A DNA stretch of 40,002 bases, from assembly GCA_019635485.1 (NCBI GenBank), contig JAHBZL010000045.1, positions 1 to 40,002 on the forward strand, read 5' to 3'. The position numbers and the translations under genes are program-made. The notes beneath the pieces are model-generated. The model was not told where the DNA came from. It saw only the letters and a list, made by a program, of their open reading frames with translations, and searched no databases. This DNA comes from Piscinibacter sp. (GTDB lineage Bacteria > Pseudomonadota > Gammaproteobacteria > Burkholderiales > Burkholderiaceae_C). Below are positions 21,074-34,828 of this stretch, in pieces; the stretch's first letter is position 1; each line of letters opens with the position of its first letter.

Positions 21074-23335
21074 ATGCTGCGCTTTCACTTCCCGATCGTC
21101 ATCATCGACGAGGACTTCCGCTCCGAGAACGCCTCGGGCCTGGGCATCCGCGCGCTGGCCGCGGCGATCGAAAAGGAAGGCCTGGAGGTGCTGGGCGTCA
21201 CCAGCTACGGCGACCTGAGCCAGTTCGCGCAGCAGCAGAGCCGGGCCTCGGCCTTCATCCTTTCGATCGACGACGAGGAGTTCGGCGCCGGGCCGGAGGA
21301 CGTGCCGGCGGTGCTCTCGCTGCGCAAGTTCATCGGCGAGATCCGCTTCCGCAACGCCGACATCCCGATCTACCTGTACGGCGAGACGCGCACGTCGGAG
21401 CACATCCCGAACGACATCCTGCGCGAGCTGCACGGCTTCATCCACATGTTCGAGGACACGCCGGAGTTCGTCGCGCGCCACATCATCCGCGAGGCCAAGA
21501 GCTACCTCGACGGGCTGGCGCCGCCGTTCTTCAAGGCGCTGATGGACTATGCGCAGGACGGCTCGTATTCCTGGCACTGCCCGGGCCACTCGGGCGGCGT
21601 GGCGTTCCTGAAGAGCCCGGTCGGGCAGATGTTCCACCAGTTCTTCGGCGAGAACATGCTGCGCGCCGACGTCTGCAACGCGGTCGAGGAACTCGGCCAG
21701 CTGCTGGACCACACGGGCCCGGTGGCGCAGAGCGAGCGCAACGCGGCGCGCATCTTCAACGCCGACCACTGCTTCTTCGTCACCAACGGCACCAGCACCA
21801 GCAACAAGATGGTCTGGCACCACACGGTGGCGCCGGGCGACGTGGTGGTGGTGGACCGCAACTGCCACAAGTCCATCCTGCACTCGATCATCATGACCGG
21901 GGCGGTGCCGGTGTTCATGACGCCGACGCGCAATCACTTCGGCATCATCGGGCCGATCCCGGAGCGCGAATTCGCGCCGGAGACGATCCGCCGCAAGATC
22001 GCCGCCAACCCGCTGCTGGCCGGCGTCGACGCCGCCAAGGTCAAGCCGCGCATCATGACGGTGACGCAGAGCACCTACGACGGCGTGCTCTACAACACCG
22101 AGAACATCAAGGCCAAGCTCGACGGCTGGATCGACACGCTGCATTTCGACGAGGCCTGGCTGCCGCACGCGGCCTTCCACAAGTTCTACGGCAGCTTCCA
22201 CGCGATGGGCAAGGTCCGCCCGCGCCCGAAGGAGGCGATGGTGTACGCGACGCAGAGCACGCACAAGCTGCTCGCCGGCATCAGCCAGGCCTCGCAGGTG
22301 CTGGTGCAGGACTCGCAGACGGTGAAGCTCGACCGCCACCTCTTCAACGAGGCCTACCTGATGCACACGTCGACCTCGCCGCAGTACTCGATCATCGCGA
22401 GCTGCGACGTTGCGGCGGCGATGATGGAGCCGCCGGGCGGCACCGCGCTGGTCGAGGAGAGCCTGAAGGAGGCGCTCGACTTCCGCCGCGCGATGCGCAA
22501 GGTCGAGAAGGAGTTCGGCAAGGACTGGTGGTTCACCGTCTGGGGCCCGGACAAGCTCGCGGCCGAAGGCGTCGGCACGCAGGCCGACTGGGTGCTGAAA
22601 GCCGACGAGAAGTGGCACGGTTTCGGCAAGCTCGCCGCCGGCTTCAACATGCTCGACCCGATCAAGAGCACCATCATCACGCCGGGCCTGGACGTGTCGG
22701 GCAAGTTCGCGAAGACCGGCATTCCGGCATCGATCGTCACCAAGTTCCTCGCCGAGCATGGGGTGGTGGTCGAGAAGACGGGCCTGTACTCGTTCTTCAT
22801 CATGTTCACGATCGGCATCACGAAGGGCCGCTGGAACACGCTGCTGACCGCGCTGCAGCAGTTCAAGGACGACTACGACCGCAACCAGCCGATGTGGCGC
22901 ATCCTGCCGGAGTTCTGCGCGCACCATCCGCGCTACGAGCGCATGGGCCTGCGCGACCTGTGCCAGAGCATCCACGAGATGTACGCCAAGGGCGACATCG
23001 CGCGGCTGACGACGGAGATGTACCTGTCGGACCTGCAGCCGGCGATGAAGCCGAGCGACGCCTACGCCCACATCGCGCACCGCAAGACCGAGCGGGTCGG
23101 CGTCGACGCGCTCGAAGGGCGCATCACGACCTCGCTGCTGACGCCGTACCCGCCGGGCATCCCGCTGCTGATCCCGGGCGAGCGCTTCAACAAGCGCATC
23201 GTCGACTACCTGCGCTTCACGCGCGAGTTCAACGCGGCCTTCCCCGGTTTCGACACCGACGTGCACGGCCTCGTCGAGGACGAGCCGGATGCGAGCGGCG
23301 CACGCCGCTACTACGTCGACTGCGTGCGCGACTGA
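21074..23335 (+). CDS. Orn/Lys/Arg decarboxylase, large PLP type
   Basis: The 753-residue protein has the full architecture: an N-terminal response-regulator-like wing domain (about 1-135; FPIVIIDEDF), the PLP core (about 145-560) and a C-terminal domain (about 600-753). PLP residues visible are K398 (ATQSTHKLLAGISQAS), D359 (LHFDEAW) and H265 (DRNCHKS). Family members remove CO2 from lysine, arginine or ornithine, giving cadaverine, agmatine or putrescine, either for acid resistance or catabolism. By recalled similarity it lies between Pseudomonas LdcA and E. coli AdiA, so I do not assign the substrate or a symbol. No antiporter gene adjoins. Its TGA abuts the convergent stop of the Glk-RpiR gene with no gap. 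Confidence 0.92.
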   Translation: MLRFHFPIVIIDEDFRSENASGLGIRALAAAIEKEGLEVLGVTSYGDLSQFAQQQSRASAFILSIDDEEFGAGPEDVPAVLSLRKFIGEIRFRNADIPIYLYGETRTSEHIPNDILRELHGFIHMFEDTPEFVARHIIREAKSYLDGLAPPFFKALMDYAQDGSYSWHCPGHSGGVAFLKSPVGQMFHQFFGENMLRADVCNAVEELGQLLDHTGPVAQSERNAARIFNADHCFFVTNGTSTSNKMVWHHTVAPGDVVVVDRNCHKSILHSIIMTGAVPVFMTPTRNHFGIIGPIPEREFAPETIRRKIAANPLLAGVDAAKVKPRIMTVTQSTYDGVLYNTENIKAKLDGWIDTLHFDEAWLPHAAFHKFYGSFHAMGKVRPRPKEAMVYATQSTHKLLAGISQASQVLVQDSQTVKLDRHLFNEAYLMHTSTSPQYSIIASCDVAAAMMEPPGGTALVEESLKEALDFRRAMRKVEKEFGKDWWFTVWGPDKLAAEGVGTQADWVLKADEKWHGFGKLAAGFNMLDPIKSTIITPGLDVSGKFAKTGIPASIVTKFLAEHGVVVEKTGLYSFFIMFTIGITKGRWNTLLTALQQFKDDYDRNQPMWRILPEFCAHHPRYERMGLRDLCQSIHEMYAKGDIARLTTEMYLSDLQPAMKPSDAYAHIAHRKTERVGVDALEGRITTSLLTPYPPGIPLLIPGERFNKRIVDYLRFTREFNAAFPGFDTDVHGLVEDEPDASGARRYYVDCVRD

Positions 23336-25207
23336 TCAGGTGATGTGCGAGATCAGCACGCCCGGCGCCGGCTGCACCTGGCCGCCGGCAGGGCTCTGAC
23401 CGGGCGCCGGCACGTTGCCGCCCGGCGCCCCGGGACCGGGCCGGCGCATCGCGAGGCCGACCGACATCATGTCGACGACCAGCAGGTGCAGGATGCGCGA
23501 GATCATCGAGACGAAGGTCGTGGCGTCCTCGGTGTGCTCGACCGGGATGCAGACCGTCGAGCGTCGTGCCAGCGGCGACTGCCCCGCCGTGACGGCGATC
23601 ACCGAGGCGCCGTGGTCGACCGCCAGTCCGGCCGCGCGGGCCAGTTCCGGCGGCTGGCCGGAGCTCGAGACGAACACCGCGACGTCGTCCGGCCCGAGCA
23701 GTTCCGCCGCCATCGCGTGCATCGACACGTCGGTGTGCGCGACGGACGGGATGCGGAATCGGAACAGCTTGTGCTGGGCGTCCAGCGCGACCACGGCCGA
23801 GTTGCCCATCGCGTAGAACTCGACCCGCTTGGCACGCCGCAGCAGTTCGATCGCGCGGTCGACCGCCTCGACGTTGATCGACTCGCGGAACTGCACGATC
23901 GACGAGATCGTGTTGTCCAGCACCTTGGCGCACAGGTCGCCCGTGCTGTCCTGGCGGCGCACCTGCGTGCGCTGCACCGGCAGCGTGCCGGTCAGTCCCG
24001 AGCCGAGCTTGAGCTTGAAATCCGCCAGCCCCTGGAAGCCCAGCGAGCGGCAGAAGCGGATCACGGTCGGCTGGCTGACCTCGGCGCCCTGGGCAATCAG
24101 CGCGATAGGGTCGTTCAGCGCGGCGCGCGGGTTGTCGAGCACGTAGCTGGCCACGCGCTTCTCGGCGGGCGACAGCGAGTCGCGGGCGGCGCGCACGCGT
24201 TCCAGCAGCGGATTGCCGGCCTCGGCCTCGGGCATGTGGTCCGCCAGCAGCGACGAGACGCCGCGGAACGCGAGGTTCTCGGCGGTCAGCACGAAGGTCG
24301 GGATGCGCGCGACGAACTCGCTGAAGCGCCCCTTGGCCTCGAAGCGCTCCCGGAACGGGGAGCGGTCGAAGCGTTCACCGAGTCGCGGCACGATGCCTCC
24401 GCCGACGTAGATGCCGCCGCTGGCGCCGAGCGTCAGGGCCAGGTCCGAGGCCATCGTGCCGAGCATGCCGCAGAAGCAGTCGAGCGCGGCGTCGCAGGTG
24501 GCGTCGCCGCCGTGCAGCGCGCGGCGCACGATATCGGCCGCGCTCAGGTGCGCGTCCCCGTCGGACAGCGCCTGATGGATCAGTTCCAGCCCGGGCCCGG
24601 AGAGCATGCGCTCGGCCGAGACACGCGGCATCGTCTTCCATGCGTGCTGCAGCACGCGCAGTTCGCGCTCGTCGGTCGGCGCGAAGCTGACGTGGCCGCC
24701 CTCGGTGGCCAGCGTGACCCAGCGGTCGCCGCTCGGTACCAGCCCGGAAACGCCCAGGCCGGCGCCCGGGCCGATCAGCCCGATCACGCTGTCGGGCTGG
24801 GCCTCGCCGCCGCCGACCTGGCGCCGGTCCTCGGGGCCGACGTCGGGCAGCGACATGGCCAGCGCGGTGTAGTTGTTGACCACCAGCAGCGTCGACAGAT
24901 CGAGCTCGCCCTGGGCTTCCCGGATCGAGAACGCCCAGTCGCGATTGGTCATCTGGACGTGGTCGCCTTCGATCGGGTTGGCGATCGCCACTGCGCCGTG
25001 GCGTGGATGGATGCCGGGCAGCGTGGCGAGGTAGGCCTGCACCACGGCCGTGAAGCCGATGTAGTCGTCGCAGGGCAGCACCGCGATGTGCTCGAAGCTG
25101 CCGCGCACCCGTTCGATGCAGAACCGCGCGTAGGTGGCACCGATATCGGCCAGCAGCCGGGGCGCGGTGGCCGCGGGGACGGGAGGCGGGGGGCGCTCGA
25201 GGGACAT
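23336..25207 (-). CDS. Glucokinase-like domain fused to RpiR/HexR-type regulator (kinase half probably inactive)
   Basis: The 623 residues combine a Glk-type domain (about 17-325), an RpiR helix-turn-helix (about 331-405; EVSQPTVIRFCRSLGFQGLA), a SIS sugar-phosphate domain (about 440-580; YAMGNSAVVALD, VSSSGQPPELA) and a Pro/Gly-rich tail. Such fusions are known in Burkholderia. Here the kinase half departs from working Glk: the ATP motif DxGGTN reads DIGATY (A24, Y26), the catalytic Asp of the ND pair (D100 in E. coli Glk) is N112 (VVNNYTALAM), and GPGTGLG reads GPGAGLG (A149). The glucose-binding E169, H172 and E199 are kept. I infer a sugar-binding, non-phosphorylating sensor feeding a repressor. 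It is the last gene of the maltodextrin operon, 8 nt after the amylase; the SIS domain may sense a sugar phosphate such as KDPG, as in HexR. Confidence 0.9.
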   Translation of the reverse strand: MSLERPPPPVPAATAPRLLADIGATYARFCIERVRGSFEHIAVLPCDDYIGFTAVVQAYLATLPGIHPRHGAVAIANPIEGDHVQMTNRDWAFSIREAQGELDLSTLLVVNNYTALAMSLPDVGPEDRRQVGGGEAQPDSVIGLIGPGAGLGVSGLVPSGDRWVTLATEGGHVSFAPTDERELRVLQHAWKTMPRVSAERMLSGPGLELIHQALSDGDAHLSAADIVRRALHGGDATCDAALDCFCGMLGTMASDLALTLGASGGIYVGGGIVPRLGERFDRSPFRERFEAKGRFSEFVARIPTFVLTAENLAFRGVSSLLADHMPEAEAGNPLLERVRAARDSLSPAEKRVASYVLDNPRAALNDPIALIAQGAEVSQPTVIRFCRSLGFQGLADFKLKLGSGLTGTLPVQRTQVRRQDSTGDLCAKVLDNTISSIVQFRESINVEAVDRAIELLRRAKRVEFYAMGNSAVVALDAQHKLFRFRIPSVAHTDVSMHAMAAELLGPDDVAVFVSSSGQPPELARAAGLAVDHGASVIAVTAGQSPLARRSTVCIPVEHTEDATTFVSMISRILHLLVVDMMSVGLAMRRPGPGAPGGNVPAPGQSPAGGQVQPAPGVLISHIT

Positions 25208-25215
25208 GGGCGGGA

Positions 25216-26832
25216 TCAGGGCCGGGCTTTCAGCACGACCATCTGTTGCGGGGCCAGCTTCACCTGCAAGTTGCCGGCCGGACCGACGAGGGACGGCGTG
25301 GCGCCCGCCGGGAAGACCGGCTGCCAGCGGGCGGCCTCGAGCGGGGCGGGTACCGTCAGCGTGGCCTCGCGGTAGGCGTAGTTGATCAGCACCAGCAGGG
25401 TGCTGCCCTCGTGCTCGCGGGTGAAGGCGAAGATCGGCGCGTCGCGCTGCGACAGCGGGGTGAAGCGGCCGACCGAGAGCGCCGGTTCCGCGTTGCGCAG
25501 CGCGATCAGGCCCCGGTACCAGTGGAGCAGCGAACCGGGGTCGGCCTGCTCGGCGGCAACGTTGTGGGTTTTCCAGTTCGCCACCAGCGGGCGGAACGGC
25601 TGGGCGGCGGTCGTGAAGCCGGCCTGGCCCTCGCCGGACCAGCTCATCGGGCCGCGGATGGACTGGTCGTCGTTGGTGACGGGGGCCGATTCGCCGAGGC
25701 CGATCTCCTCGCCGTAGTAGACGAACGGCGTGCCCGGCAGCGTCAGCAGCGTGCCCGCGGCCAGCCGGTAGCTCTTCTCGTCGCCGCCGAACTGGCGGAT
25801 CAACCGCGCGCCGGCGAAGAAGTCGTGGTTCGCGAGCAGGGTGGCCAGCGGCGCCGCGGGCAGCTTCTCGAGGTTGTAGAGCAGGTCGCCGCGCAGGCGA
25901 CCCAGCTTTACCGAGGCGATGATGTGCTTCTGCAGGCCGAACCCGAACGCCGCGCCGCACGAGTCCGGCTGGGCGAACGGCGCCGGATCGCTCGGCGCCT
26001 CGCACACCATGTAGCGGTTGCCGTACTCGTCGAGCAGGTCGTGCACGCGCTTGAGCAGCACGTGGTTCTCCGGCTGGTTCTCCCAGGCGATCGCGCTGTT
26101 CTCGAACAACACGCCGACGGCATCGAAGCGGAAGCCGTCGACGCCGCGGTTCAGCCAGAAGCGCAGGTTGTCGAGGTGGAAGTCGACCACCTTCGGGTTG
26201 CGCAGGTTGAAGTCCGGCATGCCGGTGTCGAACACCGCGTAATACCAGCGTTGGTTGCCCTCGCGCCAGGGTTCGCCGGAGAAGGTGTTCCAGCCCTTCG
26301 GCCTGTCCTCGCTGAAGATGTACCAGTCGGCATACGGCGACTTGCGGCTGTCGTAGGCGCTCTCGAACAGCGGGTGGCCGGCGGCGCTGTGGTTCATCAC
26401 GTAGTCGACGATCACGCCGATGCCGCGCTTGTGGGCTTCGGCCAGCAGGCGGTCGAAATCCGCCAGCGTGCCGTAGTCGGGTTCGATCTCGCGGTAGTTC
26501 ACGACCGCGTAGCCGTGGTCGTGGTCCTCGCTCTTGAAGACCGGCATCAGCCACAGGCCCTTCACGCCCAGGCTCTGCAGGTAGTCGAGCCGCGAGGTGA
26601 GCCCGTTCAGGTCGCCGATGCCGTCGCCGTTGCTGTCCTGGTACGCGCGCACCAGGATCTCCATGAACACGCCGCGCTGCGCCCAGCCCGGCGGCAGCGC
26701 GCTGTCGCGCTTGAGCACCGGCACCGGGCCCAGGTCGGGGATGGCCGGCGTCTGCGCCGGGGCGGCGGCCGGGCAGGCCCACGCCCAGGCGGCGAGCAGC
26801 GCGGCCGCGGCGTGACGCCGCAGCGAAAGCAT
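25216..26832 (-). CDS. Secreted GH13 alpha-glucosidase / alpha-amylase
   Basis: The 538-residue enzyme has a signal peptide (about 1-28) and a GH13 barrel. Conserved regions are VDYVMNH, the nucleophile D237 ([10 protein letters not shown]), the acid E278 (MVCEAPSDP) and D337 (LLANHDF); the N-terminal [20 protein letters not shown] is the calcium/oligosaccharide loop found in oligo-1,6-glucosidase, alpha-glucosidase and trehalose synthase relatives. It should cut maltodextrins in the periplasm or outside the cell; exact bond preference cannot be read. The ATG at 26832 has GGGAG five nt upstream and starts the signal peptide. It sits between the starch-binding protein (11 nt) and the Glk-RpiR fusion in the mal operon. 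Confidence 0.9.
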
Positions 26833-26843
26833 GCCGGCTCCCG

Positions 26844-27287
26844 TCACTTGCAGGGGTTCTCGGCGCGGGCCTTCTTGGCGTCCTCGAGCGAGGTGTAGAT
26901 GTTGCGGTCGCCGTTGTTGACCCAGATCTCGGTCGTGGCGTTGCCGTCGAACTGCATGTCGCGGCCGCCCTGGTCCTTGCTGTTGCCCTTGTGGATGATG
27001 TAGTTGACCTTGCCGCCGGGGAAGTCCTCGAGCTTGACCTGCCAGTACACGCCGAAATCGTTCTTGCCGGTCTGCTGCACGCCGTTGTCCCAGCTGACGC
27101 CGGGCACGGCCGGGCCCCCGGGGCCGCGTTGCCAGATGTGCAGTTCCCAGCCGCCATAGCTGGCGTCGCAGCGGTTGTAGTTGATCGCCACCATGCCGGC
27201 CGGCGGAGCGGCCTGCACGACGACCGGGGCGAGCAGGCCCGCCGCGCAGGCGGCGGCGAGGCGGAGGAGGGCGGTGCGGTGGATCAT
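26844..27287 (-). CDS. Secreted single-domain CBM41 / pullulanase-associated starch-binding protein
   Basis: A 147-residue protein with a signal peptide (about 1-26, ending VVVQAAPPAG) and one domain resembling the pullulanase-associated CBM41 family: AINYNRCDASYGGWELHIWQ at its start, NDFGVYWQVKLEDF in the middle, then VNYIIHKGNSKDQGGRDMQF and TTEIWVNNGDRNIYTSLEDA. These Trp-rich strands bind alpha-glucans in pullulanases, where the domain is normally joined to an enzyme. Here there is no catalytic part. Two Cys (in NRCDAS and the final NPCK) could form a disulfide after export. The ATG follows GAGGT by five nt. It lies between malG (59 nt) and the amylase (11 nt), so it may hold glucan for the enzyme or for LamB/MalE. 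Confidence 0.8.
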   Translation of the reverse strand: MIHRTALLRLAAACAAGLLAPVVVQAAPPAGMVAINYNRCDASYGGWELHIWQRGPGGPAVPGVSWDNGVQQTGKNDFGVYWQVKLEDFPGGKVNYIIHKGNSKDQGGRDMQFDGNATTEIWVNNGDRNIYTSLEDAKKARAENPCK

Positions 27288-27346
27288 GGTGGACCTCGTG
27301 CGTCGGTGAGGGTGGGCCGCGTCGTGGCGGCGGAGGGGTTTCGGGT

Positions 27347-28237
27347 TCAGCCCTTGATGCCCCCGGCGGTCAGGCCGGAGATCATCCACTTCTGGGCCAG
27401 GATGAAGACGATGGTGATCGGCAGGCCGGACAGGATGGCCGCTGCGGCGAAATCGCCCCACAGGTACTTCTGCGCGTAGAGGAACTGCTGCGAGCCCACC
27501 GCCATCGTCAGGTTGTGCTGCTGCTTCAGCAGGATCGACGCGACCGGGTACTCGATGATCGCGCCGATGAACGCCAGCAGGAACACCACCATCAGGATCG
27601 GCACGGCCATCGGCAGCAGCACGAGCCAGAAGGCCTGCCACGGCGAGGCGCCGTCGACCTTGGCGGCTTCCTCGATCTCCACCGGGATGGTCTCGTAGTA
27701 GCCCTTGATGGTCCACACGTGCAGCGCGATGCCGCCCGAATAGGCCAGTAGCAGCGACCAGTGGCTGTCGATGCCGAAGGCGGGGAAGGCGTTGCCGATG
27801 CGGTCGAAGATCGCGTAGATCGCGATCAGCGCCAGCACGGCCGGGAACATCTGCATCAGCATCAGGCCGGTGAGCGCGGCCTTCTTGCCGGCGAACTTCA
27901 TGCGCGCGAACGCATACGCGGCGGTGGTCGACAGCAGCAGGCCGATGCAGGCCGACATCGTCGCGATCTTGGCCGAGTTCCACAGCCAGCGCAGCACCGG
28001 CAGGTCCGGCTCGACGAGGCGGCCGTCGGCCGCCTGGTAGGGGATGCCGAGCGCGAAGCGCCAGTGCTCGAGGCTGATCGACTCGGGAATGATGCTGCCG
28101 GTGGCGAAGTTGCCCGGCCGCAGCGAGATCGACAGGATCATCAGGAACGGGAAGATCACCAGCGCGCACAGCGCGACCAGGAACACGTGCGCCGCGATCA
28201 CGCGCCAGCGGTGGCTCTTGTCGAGAACGATGGCCAT
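27347..28237 (-). CDS. malG: Maltose/maltodextrin ABC transporter permease MalG
   Basis: Inner-membrane permease (296 residues) with six helices and the cytoplasmic EAA loop ([20 protein letters not shown], about 187-206) that docks onto the MalK ATPase. The length and the C-terminal [16 protein letters not shown] match E. coli MalG, whose C-terminal tail contacts MalK. It starts 4 nt after malF. With MalF and MalK2 it imports maltose and maltodextrins delivered by MalE. Confidence 0.96.
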
Positions 28238-28241
28238 GGCG

Positions 28242-29765
<1,524 letters not shown>

Positions 29766-29766
29766 C

Positions 29767-30963
<1,197 letters not shown>

Positions 30964-31056: not shown

Positions 31057-32154
<1,098 letters not shown>

Positions 32155-32244: not shown

Positions 32245-33405
32245 TCAGAACCAGATTTCGGCCTGGAAGCCGGCGGCCGTCTTGTTCGACTTCGTCTGGC
32301 CCTGGGCGGCCTGGTAGGCGTCGTTGAACTTGAAGGTCGACACGTAGAAGCGCAGTTCCGGACGGTCGTAGTAGTTCGGTCCGACCGTCAGCGTCGGGGC
32401 GATCGTGAACTTCGTGACGCGCTGGGTCTGGGCGCCGTCGGTCGGCTTCTGCGCTGCCGTGCCGAGTTCGGCCTGCAGTTTGAAGTTCTTCGTCATCGCG
32501 TAGGCGACACGACCGGCGATCTGGTTGTACTTGCGCTTGACGTCGCCCGTCTTCTCCTCGCCGAAGCTGACCATCGCCTGGCCCGTCAGCGGCCCCTTGA
32601 CCCAGGTCATCGCGTCGGTCAGGCGCCAGCGCTTCTTGTCGTTGTCGTCGGTGCCGCCGCCGAAGCCCATGTTCAGGTAGGCCGAGCCGGTGGCGTACTG
32701 CGCCCAGAAGGTGTTGTCGCCGCCGGCGAACAGGTTGGCCTGGTTGTGCTGCAGGCTGATGCCGAAGCCGTCTTCGCCGCCGGGGCCGGAGAAGTTCGTG
32801 TAGACACCGGTGAGGCGCAGCTTGCCGCCCGGGTTGGTGTTGATGCCCTCGAGGTCGAGGTTCAGGCGCGTGCCCGGGTTGTCGCCGGACTCGTCGCCGG
32901 TGCGGAACACCGCGGCGCTCAGCGAGCCGACGCCCATGTCGATGCCGTCCACGCCGGCGCCCGAGCCGCTCATGTCGACGATGAAGGTGTCGTCGAAGTG
33001 CACGTCGGCGCGATGGTAGAAGCGGCGGCCGACCCAGAAGGTCAGGTTCGGCGCGATGTCGAAGCCCTGGCCCTCGACATAGATCTGGTTCACCTTGGTC
33101 TCGTTGCCGCCCGGGTCGGAACCTTCGTTGAAGAAGTTCGCCATCAGCAGCGTCTTGTACTTGACGCCGCCCGCTTCGCCGCCCTGGCTCAGCGCGAACT
33201 CGCCATAGGTGTTGCACTCGTTGCCGAGGCGGCCGATGCCGCCGTGGCCGCCGTCGGCGCCGCCGTCGAAGCACTTCTTCTCGGTGCCGCTGTTCTGCTT
33301 CTGGCCCGGACCGACACGCACGTAGCCGCCCCAGTCGACCGCATAGGCGCCGGTCGAGAGCAGGCTGATCGCGGCTGCGGCGATCAGGGTGGGTTTGATT
33401 CTCAT
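32245..33405 (-). CDS. lamB: Maltoporin (LamB family)
   Basis: Outer-membrane trimeric channel for maltodextrins. The 386-residue precursor has a signal peptide (about 1-22, STGAYA-VDW), then VDWGGYVRVG and RLGNECNTYGEFALSQ, the conserved N-terminal strands and Cys-containing loop of LamB, and ends in the aromatic QAEIWF typical of Omp85-inserted barrels. GAGGAG six nt upstream fixes the ATG at 33405; the open frame up to 33576 has no signal-like start. It is the first gene of the maltodextrin operon and is divergent from glk across 451 bp. Confidence 0.95.
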   Translation of the reverse strand: MRIKPTLIAAAAISLLSTGAYAVDWGGYVRVGPGQKQNSGTEKKCFDGGADGGHGGIGRLGNECNTYGEFALSQGGEAGGVKYKTLLMANFFNEGSDPGGNETKVNQIYVEGQGFDIAPNLTFWVGRRFYHRADVHFDDTFIVDMSGSGAGVDGIDMGVGSLSAAVFRTGDESGDNPGTRLNLDLEGINTNPGGKLRLTGVYTNFSGPGGEDGFGISLQHNQANLFAGGDNTFWAQYATGSAYLNMGFGGGTDDNDKKRWRLTDAMTWVKGPLTGQAMVSFGEEKTGDVKRKYNQIAGRVAYAMTKNFKLQAELGTAAQKPTDGAQTQRVTKFTIAPTLTVGPNYYDRPELRFYVSTFKFNDAYQAAQGQTKSNKTAAGFQAEIWF

Positions 33406-33420
33406 CGTTGACTCCTCAGA

Positions 33421-33439
33421 GGTTCTGCATGAAGGAACC
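33421..33439 (-). promoter_or_regulatory. Small hairpin just upstream of the lamB ribosome site
   Basis: On the minus strand GGTTC-CTTCATGCA-GAACC forms a 5-bp stem with a 9-nt loop, ending a few nt before the lamB Shine-Dalgarno GAGGAG. It could modulate lamB translation or stabilise the message. Short stem, so the evidence is weak. Confidence 0.3.
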
Positions 33440-33640
33440 AGCGCTGACGCTCGGCATGCCTGCCCGCGCGGGCGCTGGCGGCGGGGGGAACCCGGTCGCA
33501 ACAGGGGAAGGCCGGCGAAAAAGGAGCGACGCCGCACGCGGCGCCGCGAACTCGCTCTTCCGACCTCCCAGGGCACTCGCCACCGGGGGGTGCCCGGCGG
33601 CGCGCGCGTCTTGTCTCCGCAACCGGCTCTTGGCGGCCGC

Positions 33641-33661
33641 GGGCAACCCGTGCGGGTGCCC
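33641..33661 (-). promoter_or_regulatory. G+C-rich hairpin in the long lamB leader region
   Basis: GGGCA and CCC (33641-33649) pair with GGG and TGCCC (33654-33661) around loop GTGC, with one bulged A. It lies between the upstream operator-like palindrome and lamB. The rest of 33440-33640 shows other G+C palindromes (for example GCCCGCGCGGGC at 33462-33473) but no convincing gene, so this 451-bp gap seems regulatory. Confidence 0.35.
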
Positions 33662-33683
33662 TGTTCAAGTCGCGATCGACTCT

Positions 33684-33698
33684 AGTAGTCGGACTACA
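33684..33698. promoter_or_regulatory. HexR/RpiR-like operator, site 1 (lamB side)
   Basis: AGTAGTCGGACTACA contains perfect arms GTAGTC / GACTAC around one G. Read on the minus strand (TGTAGTCCGACTACT) it fits the TGTARTnnnAYTACA pattern described for HexR, an RpiR-family repressor, save for the last base. It is 279 nt upstream of the lamB ATG and 117 bp from a near-identical site 2. The regulator is likely the Glk-RpiR fusion at the end of the lamB operon; this is inferred, not shown. Confidence 0.6.
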
Positions 33699-33788
33699 AA
33701 CGACGTACACGGGTTTACGCCAACTGTGCAGGATTGCAACAGATCCCGCAGAGGGGCTTGTCAGCGCGACTCAGGGTTTCACGCCGGT

Positions 33789-33817
33789 TTCAGACGCCGT
33801 AGTAGTTCGGCTACATT
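33789..33817 (+). promoter_or_regulatory. Predicted sigma70 promoter of glk
   Basis: TTCAGA (33789-33794), a 17-nt spacer and TACATT (33812-33817) each match four of six consensus bases. The predicted start would be near 33825, giving a leader of about 30 nt before glk. Operator-like site 2 covers the spacer and the -10, the classical place for repression. Confidence 0.5.
33801..33815. promoter_or_regulatory. HexR/RpiR-like operator, site 2 (glk side)
   Basis: AGTAGTTCGGCTACA shares 12 of 15 bases with site 1 in the same orientation, with arms AGTAGT / GCTACA. It overlaps the predicted glk -10 and ends 41 nt before the glk ATG. Centre-to-centre distance to site 1 is 117 bp, about 11 helical turns, which would allow looping between the two. 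Confidence 0.6.
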
Positions 33818-33856
33818 GCGCGCCTGATCGACTCGCCTGACCCCGCATCGCATTCG

Positions 33857-34828
33857 ATGGACTCGACTGGTTACCCGCGCCTGGTAGGCGACATCGGCGG
33901 TACCAACGCCCGGCTCGCGTGGCATGCCGCGGCAGGAGCCGCGCCGACCGACGTCGTCGCGCTGCCCTGTGCCGACCACGTGTCGCTGGAGGCGGCGATG
34001 CGGCACTACCTCGGCGCAATCGGTCGCAGCGCGCCGCGCTGGTGCGCCATCGGGATTGCGAACCCGGTGGTCGGCGACCAGGTGCGCATGACCAATCACG
34101 ACTGGAGCTTCTCGATCGAGGCGATGCGGCGCTCGCTCGGCTTCGAGCGCTTCCTGGTGATCAACGACTTCACCGCGCTCGCCCTGGCCCTGCCGGCGCT
34201 CGCGCCGGGGGATGTGCGCCAGGTCGGTGCCGGCCGGGCCGTGCCCGACGCGCCGCTGGGCCTGCTCGGCCCGGGAACCGGTCTGGGCGTGTCCGGTCTG
34301 CTGCCGGCGCGCAGCGGGCTGCGCTCGACGCCGGTCACCGGCGAGGGCGGCCATGTGACGCTGGCGGCGACCGACGACCTCGAGGAGGCGGTCGTGCGTC
34401 GCCTGCGCGAGCGCTTCGGGCACGCCTCCGCCGAGCGGGCGGTGTCCGGTCCCGGCCTCGTGAATCTGCATGAAGCGGTGTGCCATGTGCGCGGCGTCGA
34501 GGTGCCCGCGGTCGACCCGGCCGAGATCACGCGCCGCGCGGAGCAGGGCGAGGATCCGCACTGCGTGGAAGCGCTCGACCTGTTCTTCGCCTTCCTCGGC
34601 ACGACCGCCGGCAACCTCGCGCTCTCGCTGGGGACGCTCGGGGGCATGTACATTGGCGGCGGCATCGTGCCGCGCCTGGGTGACCGCATCGACCGTTCGC
34701 TCTTTCGCGAGCGCTTCGAGGCGAAGGGGCGGTTCCGCGCCTACCTGCAGGGCGTGCCGACCTATGTGCTGCAGGCGGGCGTGTCGCCTGCGCTGATCGG
34801 CGCCTCGCGCGCCCTGGACGACCTCTGA
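33857..34828 (+). CDS. glk: Glucokinase (Glk family)
   Basis: Phosphorylates glucose with ATP in the cytoplasm. The 323-residue protein keeps every key motif: D12-IGGTNARLA (ATP/phosphate loop), N103-D104 in VINDFTALALA (catalytic base), GPGTGLGVSGL with T141, and glucose contacts E163 and H166 (EGGHV) and E193 (SAERAVSGPG). It is not a ROK-family kinase. It is divergent from lamB, behind an operator-covered promoter, and has no clear Shine-Dalgarno, so it may be poorly translated or use a near-leaderless start. It contrasts with the defective kinase half of the Glk-RpiR fusion in the neighbouring operon. Confidence 0.94.
   Translation: MDSTGYPRLVGDIGGTNARLAWHAAAGAAPTDVVALPCADHVSLEAAMRHYLGAIGRSAPRWCAIGIANPVVGDQVRMTNHDWSFSIEAMRRSLGFERFLVINDFTALALALPALAPGDVRQVGAGRAVPDAPLGLLGPGTGLGVSGLLPARSGLRSTPVTGEGGHVTLAATDDLEEAVVRRLRERFGHASAERAVSGPGLVNLHEAVCHVRGVEVPAVDPAEITRRAEQGEDPHCVEALDLFFAFLGTTAGNLALSLGTLGGMYIGGGIVPRLGDRIDRSLFRERFEAKGRFRAYLQGVPTYVLQAGVSPALIGASRALDDL

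Follow-up and report, generated by a model that had tools for sequence, protein, structure and literature searches.

A Glk-RpiR fusion with a probable pseudokinase half encoded among mal genes of Piscinibacter, a candidate regulator of starch and maltodextrin utilization

The bifunctional regulator/glucokinases of the NF010701/PRK14101 family, which combine glucokinase (Glk), HTH_6 and SIS domains in a single frame, are the closest described relatives of the fusion protein analysed here; a representative of this family, the Glk of Paraburkholderia xenovorans, is drawn as a bifunctional glucokinase-HexR protein in PMC12568896. HexR is an RpiR regulator of central carbohydrate metabolism according to comparative regulon work (PMC5343134), and both HexR and RccR share a homologous HTH-SIS half with the present fusion, the solved RccR chains being about 280-293 residues long and without a Glk half. 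The window, that is, the whole 40,002-nucleotide stretch of a Piscinibacter sp. contig that was analysed, encodes a protein with the same domain order as the NF010701 fusions, and the profile of that family matches it over most of its length.

The fusion gene (23336..25207, minus strand; translation, Pfam and NCBIfam) closes a mal gene series and, in line with the original prediction, is intact across 623 codons: translation of the frame running from 25207 to 23336 yields 623 residues with one terminal stop only. On the minus strand, it comprises a Glk domain (residues 18-322, 24242..25156; PF02685, E 3.8e-98) that its residue states mark as a putative pseudokinase, an HTH_6 (RpiR) DNA-binding domain (residues 334-402, 24002..24208; Pfam) and a SIS domain (residues 456-580, 23468..23842; Pfam). 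The best full-length model is NF010701, at 771.5 bits, below the cut-off of 920, which none of the matches listed for the window's family in 200 genomes reached. The Glk half scores above the TIGR00749 glucokinase equivalog cut-off, which carries a risk for automated annotation, where an inactive enzyme might be entered as a glucokinase. The HTH-SIS half aligns with RccR (8ju9/8k3b, E 3e-57), its closest solved RpiR relative, of which 8k3b was solved with KDPG, and with the HexR model NF008451. When a full-length AlphaFold model (mean pLDDT 67.6) was compared with solved structures, the top hit was E. coli Glk with bound glucose (1sz2) and the fourth was RccR-KDPG (8k3b), which confirms the two folds only; the model is too weak for the active-site geometry to be read from it. 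Unlike the NF010701 fusions, the window protein scores below 920, has both GGTN and ND replaced, resides in a mal rather than a zwf context and is not the only glucokinase of its genome.

The original prediction held that the Glk half had lost its catalytic residues and kept its contacts to glucose, and the readings behind it proved accurate by translation and alignment. On the minus strand, the phosphate-1 motif DxGGTN is DIGATY (A24, Y26; 25130..25147), the ND pair, N99-D100 in E. coli Glk, is N111-N112 (AAC AAC; 24872..24877; codon 112 is AAC at 24874-24872, in the context VVNNY), and the phosphate-2 loop is GPGAGLG (A149; 24761..24763). In E. coli numbering these changes are G12A, N14Y, D100N and T137A, and the glucose contacts E157, H160 and E187 are retained as E169, H172 and E199. 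The residues of E. coli Glk in contact with glucose are N99, D100, H160 and E187 (PMC13133996); for human glucokinase, a model assigns two roles to the equivalent Asp, those of Mg ligand and base, and has the Asn of GGTN contact ATP through its backbone NH (PMC2706991). Given such a role as Mg ligand and base, replacement of the Asp by Asn should stop turnover and could preserve a hydrogen bond to the sugar. As signs of lost catalysis, however, the substitutions are not of equal value: the Asp-to-Asn change extends across a clade, but A149 is local (3 of the 21 distinct GATY/NN domains, namely those of the window, L006 and L007, where L numbers denote loci) and was dismissed as a defining change, and a changed DxGGTN motif is not diagnostic on its own. 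Loss of its Asn was discarded as proof of inactivity because stand-alone Glks with GGTH (L109) and GGSH (L147) exist and because this residue touches ATP via the backbone in the human model.

The relatives surveyed were the best 78 of the 168 loci found in a scan of species genomes, the closest being from Piscinibacter and one metagenome-assembled genome (MAG), at 82-88% identity. The P-loop could be read in 77 of these 78 loci (it is cut in L014) and is GAT[YHQ] instead of GGTN in all 77; the ND pair is NN in 16, NG in 2 and ND in 60, and all 15 NN loci with a readable P-loop have GATY. An additional fused copy in L032 has GGTN/ND and, among the readable fusions outside the family with intact motifs, is the only one with an unaltered P-loop. 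After removal of identical Glk domains, 124 distinct altered fused domains, from loci other than L207-L216, include 21 GATY/NN, 73 GATH/ND and 17 GGTY/ND domains along with several small classes; two GATY domains keep ND. The GATY and NN combination defines one clade of 21 distinct domains from Piscinibacter, Albitalea, Rhizobacter, Caldimonas, Aquabacterium and Aquincola, and loss of the Asp is confined to this clade plus an Asp-to-Gly pair. Accordingly, the expectation that the substitutions would recur in fusions placed beside mal genes was borne out for A24 and N112, with malK, malE, malF and malG present in 12 of the 16 NN loci, but not for A149. Because the substitutions are common to independent assemblies, they are not due to chance, and assembly error, one of the two conditions under which the prediction would have fallen, was eliminated.

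These counts come from a motif table without L014, whose N-terminus is cut by the contig end, and L020, in which the frame is in pieces, and from an alignment to E. coli Glk with 4 of 205 Glk domains (250 residues or fewer) set aside. The L020 copy, from Piscinibacter aquaticus (L020:10001-11885), aligns in pieces only, reflecting either a sequencing error or a broken gene. Two fused copies within about 16 kb of each other are found in several Massilia-type genomes (L028, L029, L035, L041, L051, L056, L065 and L072, and L030 with L062). A deep fusion branch (L120, L121 and L122) has GATN or GASN together with ND, with genes for a solute-binding protein and an amylase near L120 (in L181).

Among the matches listed for 43 genomes with fusions of the window's family, the P-loop was read in 42 and is altered in all 42 (L215 lacks it), and the ND pair is NN in 9 and ND in 34. 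Retention of the catalytic Asp in these 34 and in 60 of the best 78 loci counts against a pseudokinase reading. Four of the fusions (L211, L213, L214 and L216) diverge further from the canonical motifs; in L213 and L216, the P-loop Asp itself is replaced, by Ala and Glu, respectively, with ND and the glucose-contact motifs retained, which could reflect either another way of altering the kinase or a draft-genome error.

The statement that Burkholderia fusions keep GGTN and ND agrees with what we find in the family presumed to be theirs, where all 23 fusions over the NF010701 cut-off are GGTN/ND; one below it (L173) has GGTH. Taking these 23 as the definition of a competent motif pair, the window fusion, with GATY and NN, departs from it in both elements. 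In a tree of 90 Glk domains, built with the motif columns masked, the NN domains form one side of a branch with SH-aLRT support of 100, the NG domains are apart from them, nested in the GATH group, and fusions with intact GGTN/ND fall between altered groups. Loss of the P-loop Asn therefore appears to be a repeated event, the number of events being uncertain, given that this is a quick tree with 30 of the 87 inner branches open and some of the relevant forks below 95, for which 90 of 116 representatives were taken (most of the 26 dropped are of the Oxalobacteraceae type).

The window also encodes a stand-alone glucokinase (33857..34828, plus strand; motif reading, alignment and profile matches), divergent from lamB and located at the opposite end of the mal cluster from the fusion, in which DIGGTN, ND and GPGTGLG are all intact. 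In the window's family, a further Glk match is present in 43 of the 43 genomes with a match across both halves of the fusion (G549 matches only in part and was not counted), among the matches listed for the 200 genomes searched. By contrast, only 2 of 23 genomes with an intact-type fusion have a further Glk and 21 have none, a difference that rests on few independent lineages because the genomes are related. The 32 distinct single Glks whose motifs were read at sampled loci all have ND, with GGTN in 22 and GGSN in 7; an odd one with GGRR comes from the broken L020 assembly. Of 21 loci with GGTY, GGTF or GSTF fusions from the window's family, 18 have a single ND-type Glk no more than 1.5 kb away, a contig edge cutting one in L136 and L146, and no single Glk was found within 1.5 kb in the 24 intact-family loci L150-L173. 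A separate HexR-like gene of the window genome adjoins zwf.

Replacement of the catalytic Asp by Asn in the whole clade, together with an intact glucokinase gene in the same cluster, makes it very probable that the Glk half no longer works as a glucokinase. A weak or changed phosphotransfer, with the protein still a bifunctional regulator and enzyme, would account for the retention of much of the ATP site, for the TIGR00749 score and for the Asp being mostly kept by lineages outside the NN clade; nevertheless, we consider such a slow or altered kinase quite unlikely, considering that the human glucokinase model proposes this Asp as both base and Mg ligand (PMC2706991), that three phosphate and catalytic invariants are altered together across the clade, and that the intact glk gene is part of the same cluster.

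The losses in the NN clade were assessed against 58 positions, each at least 97% invariant in 46 distinct canonical Glks plus that of E. coli. With G12A, N14Y and D100N as its defining changes, the set of 21 distinct GATY/NN domains retains 48 of these 58 at 95% or more; in addition, the equivalent of G246 (S254 in the window) is lost in all 21, L111 in 13, H183 is replaced by Arg in 11, the window included, and T137 by Ala in 3. At the G246 position, where Gly is otherwise invariant, 119 of the 124 altered fused domains, from all three main classes, have Ala or Ser. The equivalents of N99, E157, H160, E187, S185 and R188 are invariant over the 124 domains aligned, the glucose contacts E157, H160 and E187 thus being kept in every one, and the NN clade retains D9, G11, T13, the phosphate-2 glycines and the adenosine-site glycines, so that nucleotide binding may persist. 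We infer from this pattern that the Glk half binds glucose. An alternative ligand would be glucose-6-phosphate or another anion-bearing sugar, with the anion pocket by the glucose site serving as the effector site. The phosphate pocket of E. coli Glk consists of H160, H183, S185, R188 and R286 (PMC13133996), and the equivalents of H160, S185, R188 and R286 are retained in 124 of 124 domains; the Arg in place of H183 would suit an anion as well but is limited to part of the clade, and we give this alternative little credence.

Evolution of the fusion was compared with that of the neighbouring glucokinase using the dN/dS ratios between the window and six relatives (L006, L007, L008, L009, L011 and L047). 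These are 0.19-0.30 for the Glk half, 0.08-0.15 for the RpiR half and 0.23-0.40 for the neighbouring intact Glk, the Glk half being more constrained than the neighbour in 5 of the 6 comparisons, with the exception of L009. Judging by these ratios, the Glk half is preserved by purifying selection, and the intact frame and low dN/dS rule out a decaying pseudogene. It is conceivable, if unlikely, that the inactive Glk half is a scaffold for dimerization or stability and that only a phosphosugar bound at the SIS domain governs regulation, in the manner of HexR and RccR. The RpiR half is indeed the slowest-evolving part, its nearest solved relative was captured with KDPG, and E. coli Glk has a dimer interface (PMC13133996); yet a scaffold need not retain all of the glucose contacts that are invariant in the 124 altered domains.

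The genes preceding the fusion on the same strand are, in order, those for LamB, a MalK-type ATPase, MalE, MalF, MalG, a pullulanase-associated (PUD) domain protein and an amylase, followed by the fusion as the last gene. All on the minus strand, these are the LamB porin (32245..33405; PF02264; start set at the ATG before a signal-peptide-like stretch), the MalK/UgpC-type ATPase (31057..32154; best model NF008233 MalK, below cut-off, and NF008653 UgpC subfamily, above cut-off), MalE (29767..30963; NF007011 above cut-off), MalF (28242..29765; NF008232 above cut-off, MalF_P2), MalG (27347..28237; NF008231 above cut-off), the PUD-domain protein (26847..27347, the scanned stretch, start provisional; PF03714) and the alpha-amylase family protein (25216..26847, the longest ORF, start provisional; PF00128), which ends 8 bp upstream of the fusion.

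The 12 NN loci with malK, malE, malF and malG upstream of the fusion belong to Piscinibacter, Albitalea, Caldimonas, Aquabacterium, Aquincola and one MAG; of the other four, Rhizobacter L013 has malF and malG only, and there are no mal genes in the stretches available for L010 and L012, with about 2 kb upstream, and L014, with none. An amylase match is present in 38 of the 62 non-NN loci, ending at most 600 bp before the fused copy in 12 of them. Other contexts include pullulanase and a POT-type transporter upstream (L022), a TonB receptor and a tryptophan-halogenase-family gene nearby (L175 and L179), and a glgB-type gene, a second GH13 gene and a 4-alpha-glucanotransferase (L178). In L183, the one intact-fusion locus inspected for context, with a wider flank, the neighbour is zwf, the place of which is taken by mal genes in the window. 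On the downstream side, an Orn/Lys/Arg decarboxylase-type gene (21074-23335, plus strand) converges on the fusion with abutting stop codons, and such a match on the opposite strand downstream of the fusion recurs in 13 of the 16 NN loci.

The gap between glk and lamB contains two operator-like palindromes of the type TGTAGT-N3-ACTACA, which resembles HexR (RpiR-family) sites, located by pattern scans. The first, TTGTAGTCCGACTACTA (33683..33699), is the best site in the genome, and the second, ATGTAGCCGAACTACTA (minus strand, 33800..33816), lies about 40 bp before the glk start. The window has 4 oriented matches at two places, compared to 0.20 expected in shuffles, and TGTAGTNNNACTACW occurs with at most one mismatch at only three places in the whole genome, two of them in this gap. 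The third (C12:168125) lies between divergent alpha-amylase and pullulanase genes, both with lipoprotein-like starts, that of pullulanase having been placed by hand. Oriented matches in the genome number 5 at one mismatch and 130 at two, and the 130 were not treated as a list of regulon members, only the three places with no more than one mismatch being used. A reversed-pattern control is commoner than the pattern itself (66 at one mismatch and 874 at two), so the scan shows only that the pattern is rare and it is the location of the three places that counts; the controls relied on were the shuffles of the window and 59 permuted half-sites.

The palindrome survey covered 12 of the 16 NN loci (L010, L012, L013 and L014 were left out on account of short flanks) and counted presence irrespective of gene position. 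A site with at most one mismatch was found in 7 of the 12 NN loci and 43 of 62 others, and was absent from the stretch examined in 5 and 19, respectively; the 59 permuted half-sites gave means of 0.15 NN loci and 0.69 others, with maxima of 4 and 5. Each of the 8 glk-lamB gaps examined has at least two sites with up to 2 mismatches. A perfect palindrome is located directly upstream of zwf in L183, so that the NF010701 fusions, to go by this locus, share with the window both the palindrome type and a similar recognition region. Sequences of the recognition region, SQPTVIRFCRSLG, hardly differ between the main fusion classes, as would suit a common operator, although the GATN/GASN group diverges more. 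Because L183 combines an intact Glk with the same palindrome and recognition region, control of DNA binding through the SIS domain alone, as the scaffold alternative has it, is possible. Predicted palindromic sites at target promoters, together with HTH_6 and SIS domains homologous to those of HexR and RccR, are what would be expected of an RpiR/HexR-type regulator, and synteny and the conserved operator-like palindrome support a tie of the fusion to the mal and starch genes.

Downstream of the palindromes, the lamB leader contains a terminator-like hairpin of the intrinsic type with a T tail (33526-33547, minus strand), and a strong G+C-rich hairpin with a T-rich tail, partly different in sequence, is present in the same gap in L006, L007, L008, L009 and L020. 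Such a hairpin thus occurs in 6 of 8 glk-lamB gaps; L011 has a weak stem elsewhere only and L047 has none. Attenuation of the mal genes by the hairpin is possible. No promoter-like site was found within 33400-33900.

Collectively, the Asp-to-Asn change, the intact partner Glk and the operator map favour a regulator of starch and maltodextrin genes in which a pseudokinase reads glucose, and we think it rather probable that the Glk domain of this RpiR regulator reports on glucose (or a close analogue) set free from maltodextrin and that the protein controls a starch/maltodextrin regulon. The series from mal genes through amylase to the fusion would be transcribed as one operon, and the HTH domain of the fusion would bind the glk-lamB and amylase-pullulanase palindromes. 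Glucose may close the Glk cleft and thereby change the DNA-binding state of the regulator, jointly with a phosphosugar on the SIS domain; repression relieved by the ligand appears likelier as the direction of control, by analogy with HexR. A non-phosphorylating sensor would read the glucose pool without draining it, and the neighbouring Glk would remove the signal. In the NN clade, with its kept ATP-site residues, a closed complex that does not turn over could be the signalling state.

A broader interpretation, to which we would give an even chance, is that the Glk-RpiR fusions of Burkholderiales were rewired from zwf to alpha-glucan genes, with the kinase switched off by separate routes, and constitute a bacterial, fused counterpart of Gal1/Gal3. 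The Piscinibacter group would have taken the route of GATY with NN, and the Oxalobacteraceae-type lineages that of GATH, two of them with NG as well; the remaining members of the window's family would have arrived at GGTY or GGTF, two having also lost the Asp of the P-loop. A further glucokinase match accompanies the fusion in all 43 genomes of the window's family for which this was counted. The Asn of the NN clade might keep glucose, perhaps together with ATP, in a closed state without turnover that is itself the signal.

Among the matches listed from the literature, at the level of titles and abstract openings, neither a mal-linked or catalytically dead Glk-RpiR protein nor a mal/starch regulator of the Glk-RpiR type is evident, and the fusion is a candidate regulator of the mal and starch genes in the bacteria concerned. 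The natural series that leads from an intact fusion, usually the only glucokinase of the genome, through P-loop-altered fusions to an Asp-less fusion with an intact Glk partner would show an enzyme becoming a sensor within a transcription factor, and the operator and regulon predicted here are open to test.

Nevertheless, the fusion family is known already, and the idea of a sugar kinase becoming a sensor is familiar from Gal3, HXK1 and ROK repressors, so that the present case is not a new kind of system. In ROK repressors (Mlc, NagC and XylR), a sugar-kinase fold serves as the effector domain of a transcription factor; these differ from the window protein, where PF02685 is followed by HTH_6 and SIS, in both kinase family and fusion partner. 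ROK kinases and regulators are the subject of PMC4856308. Gal3 is a sugar kinase turned sensor, and the Gal1/Gal3 kinase family differs from that of the window Glk. Gal3 acts through Gal80, whereas the window protein has its kinase-like and DNA-binding domains in one chain. The yeast pair is described as a bifunctional sugar kinase and co-inducer that was subfunctionalized into paralogues (PMC3048525). In Arabidopsis, a catalytically inactive mutant of HXK1 still binds and senses glucose (PMC8256278); in contrast to the window fusion, HXK1 is a plant protein with an active wild type and no fused DNA-binding domain.
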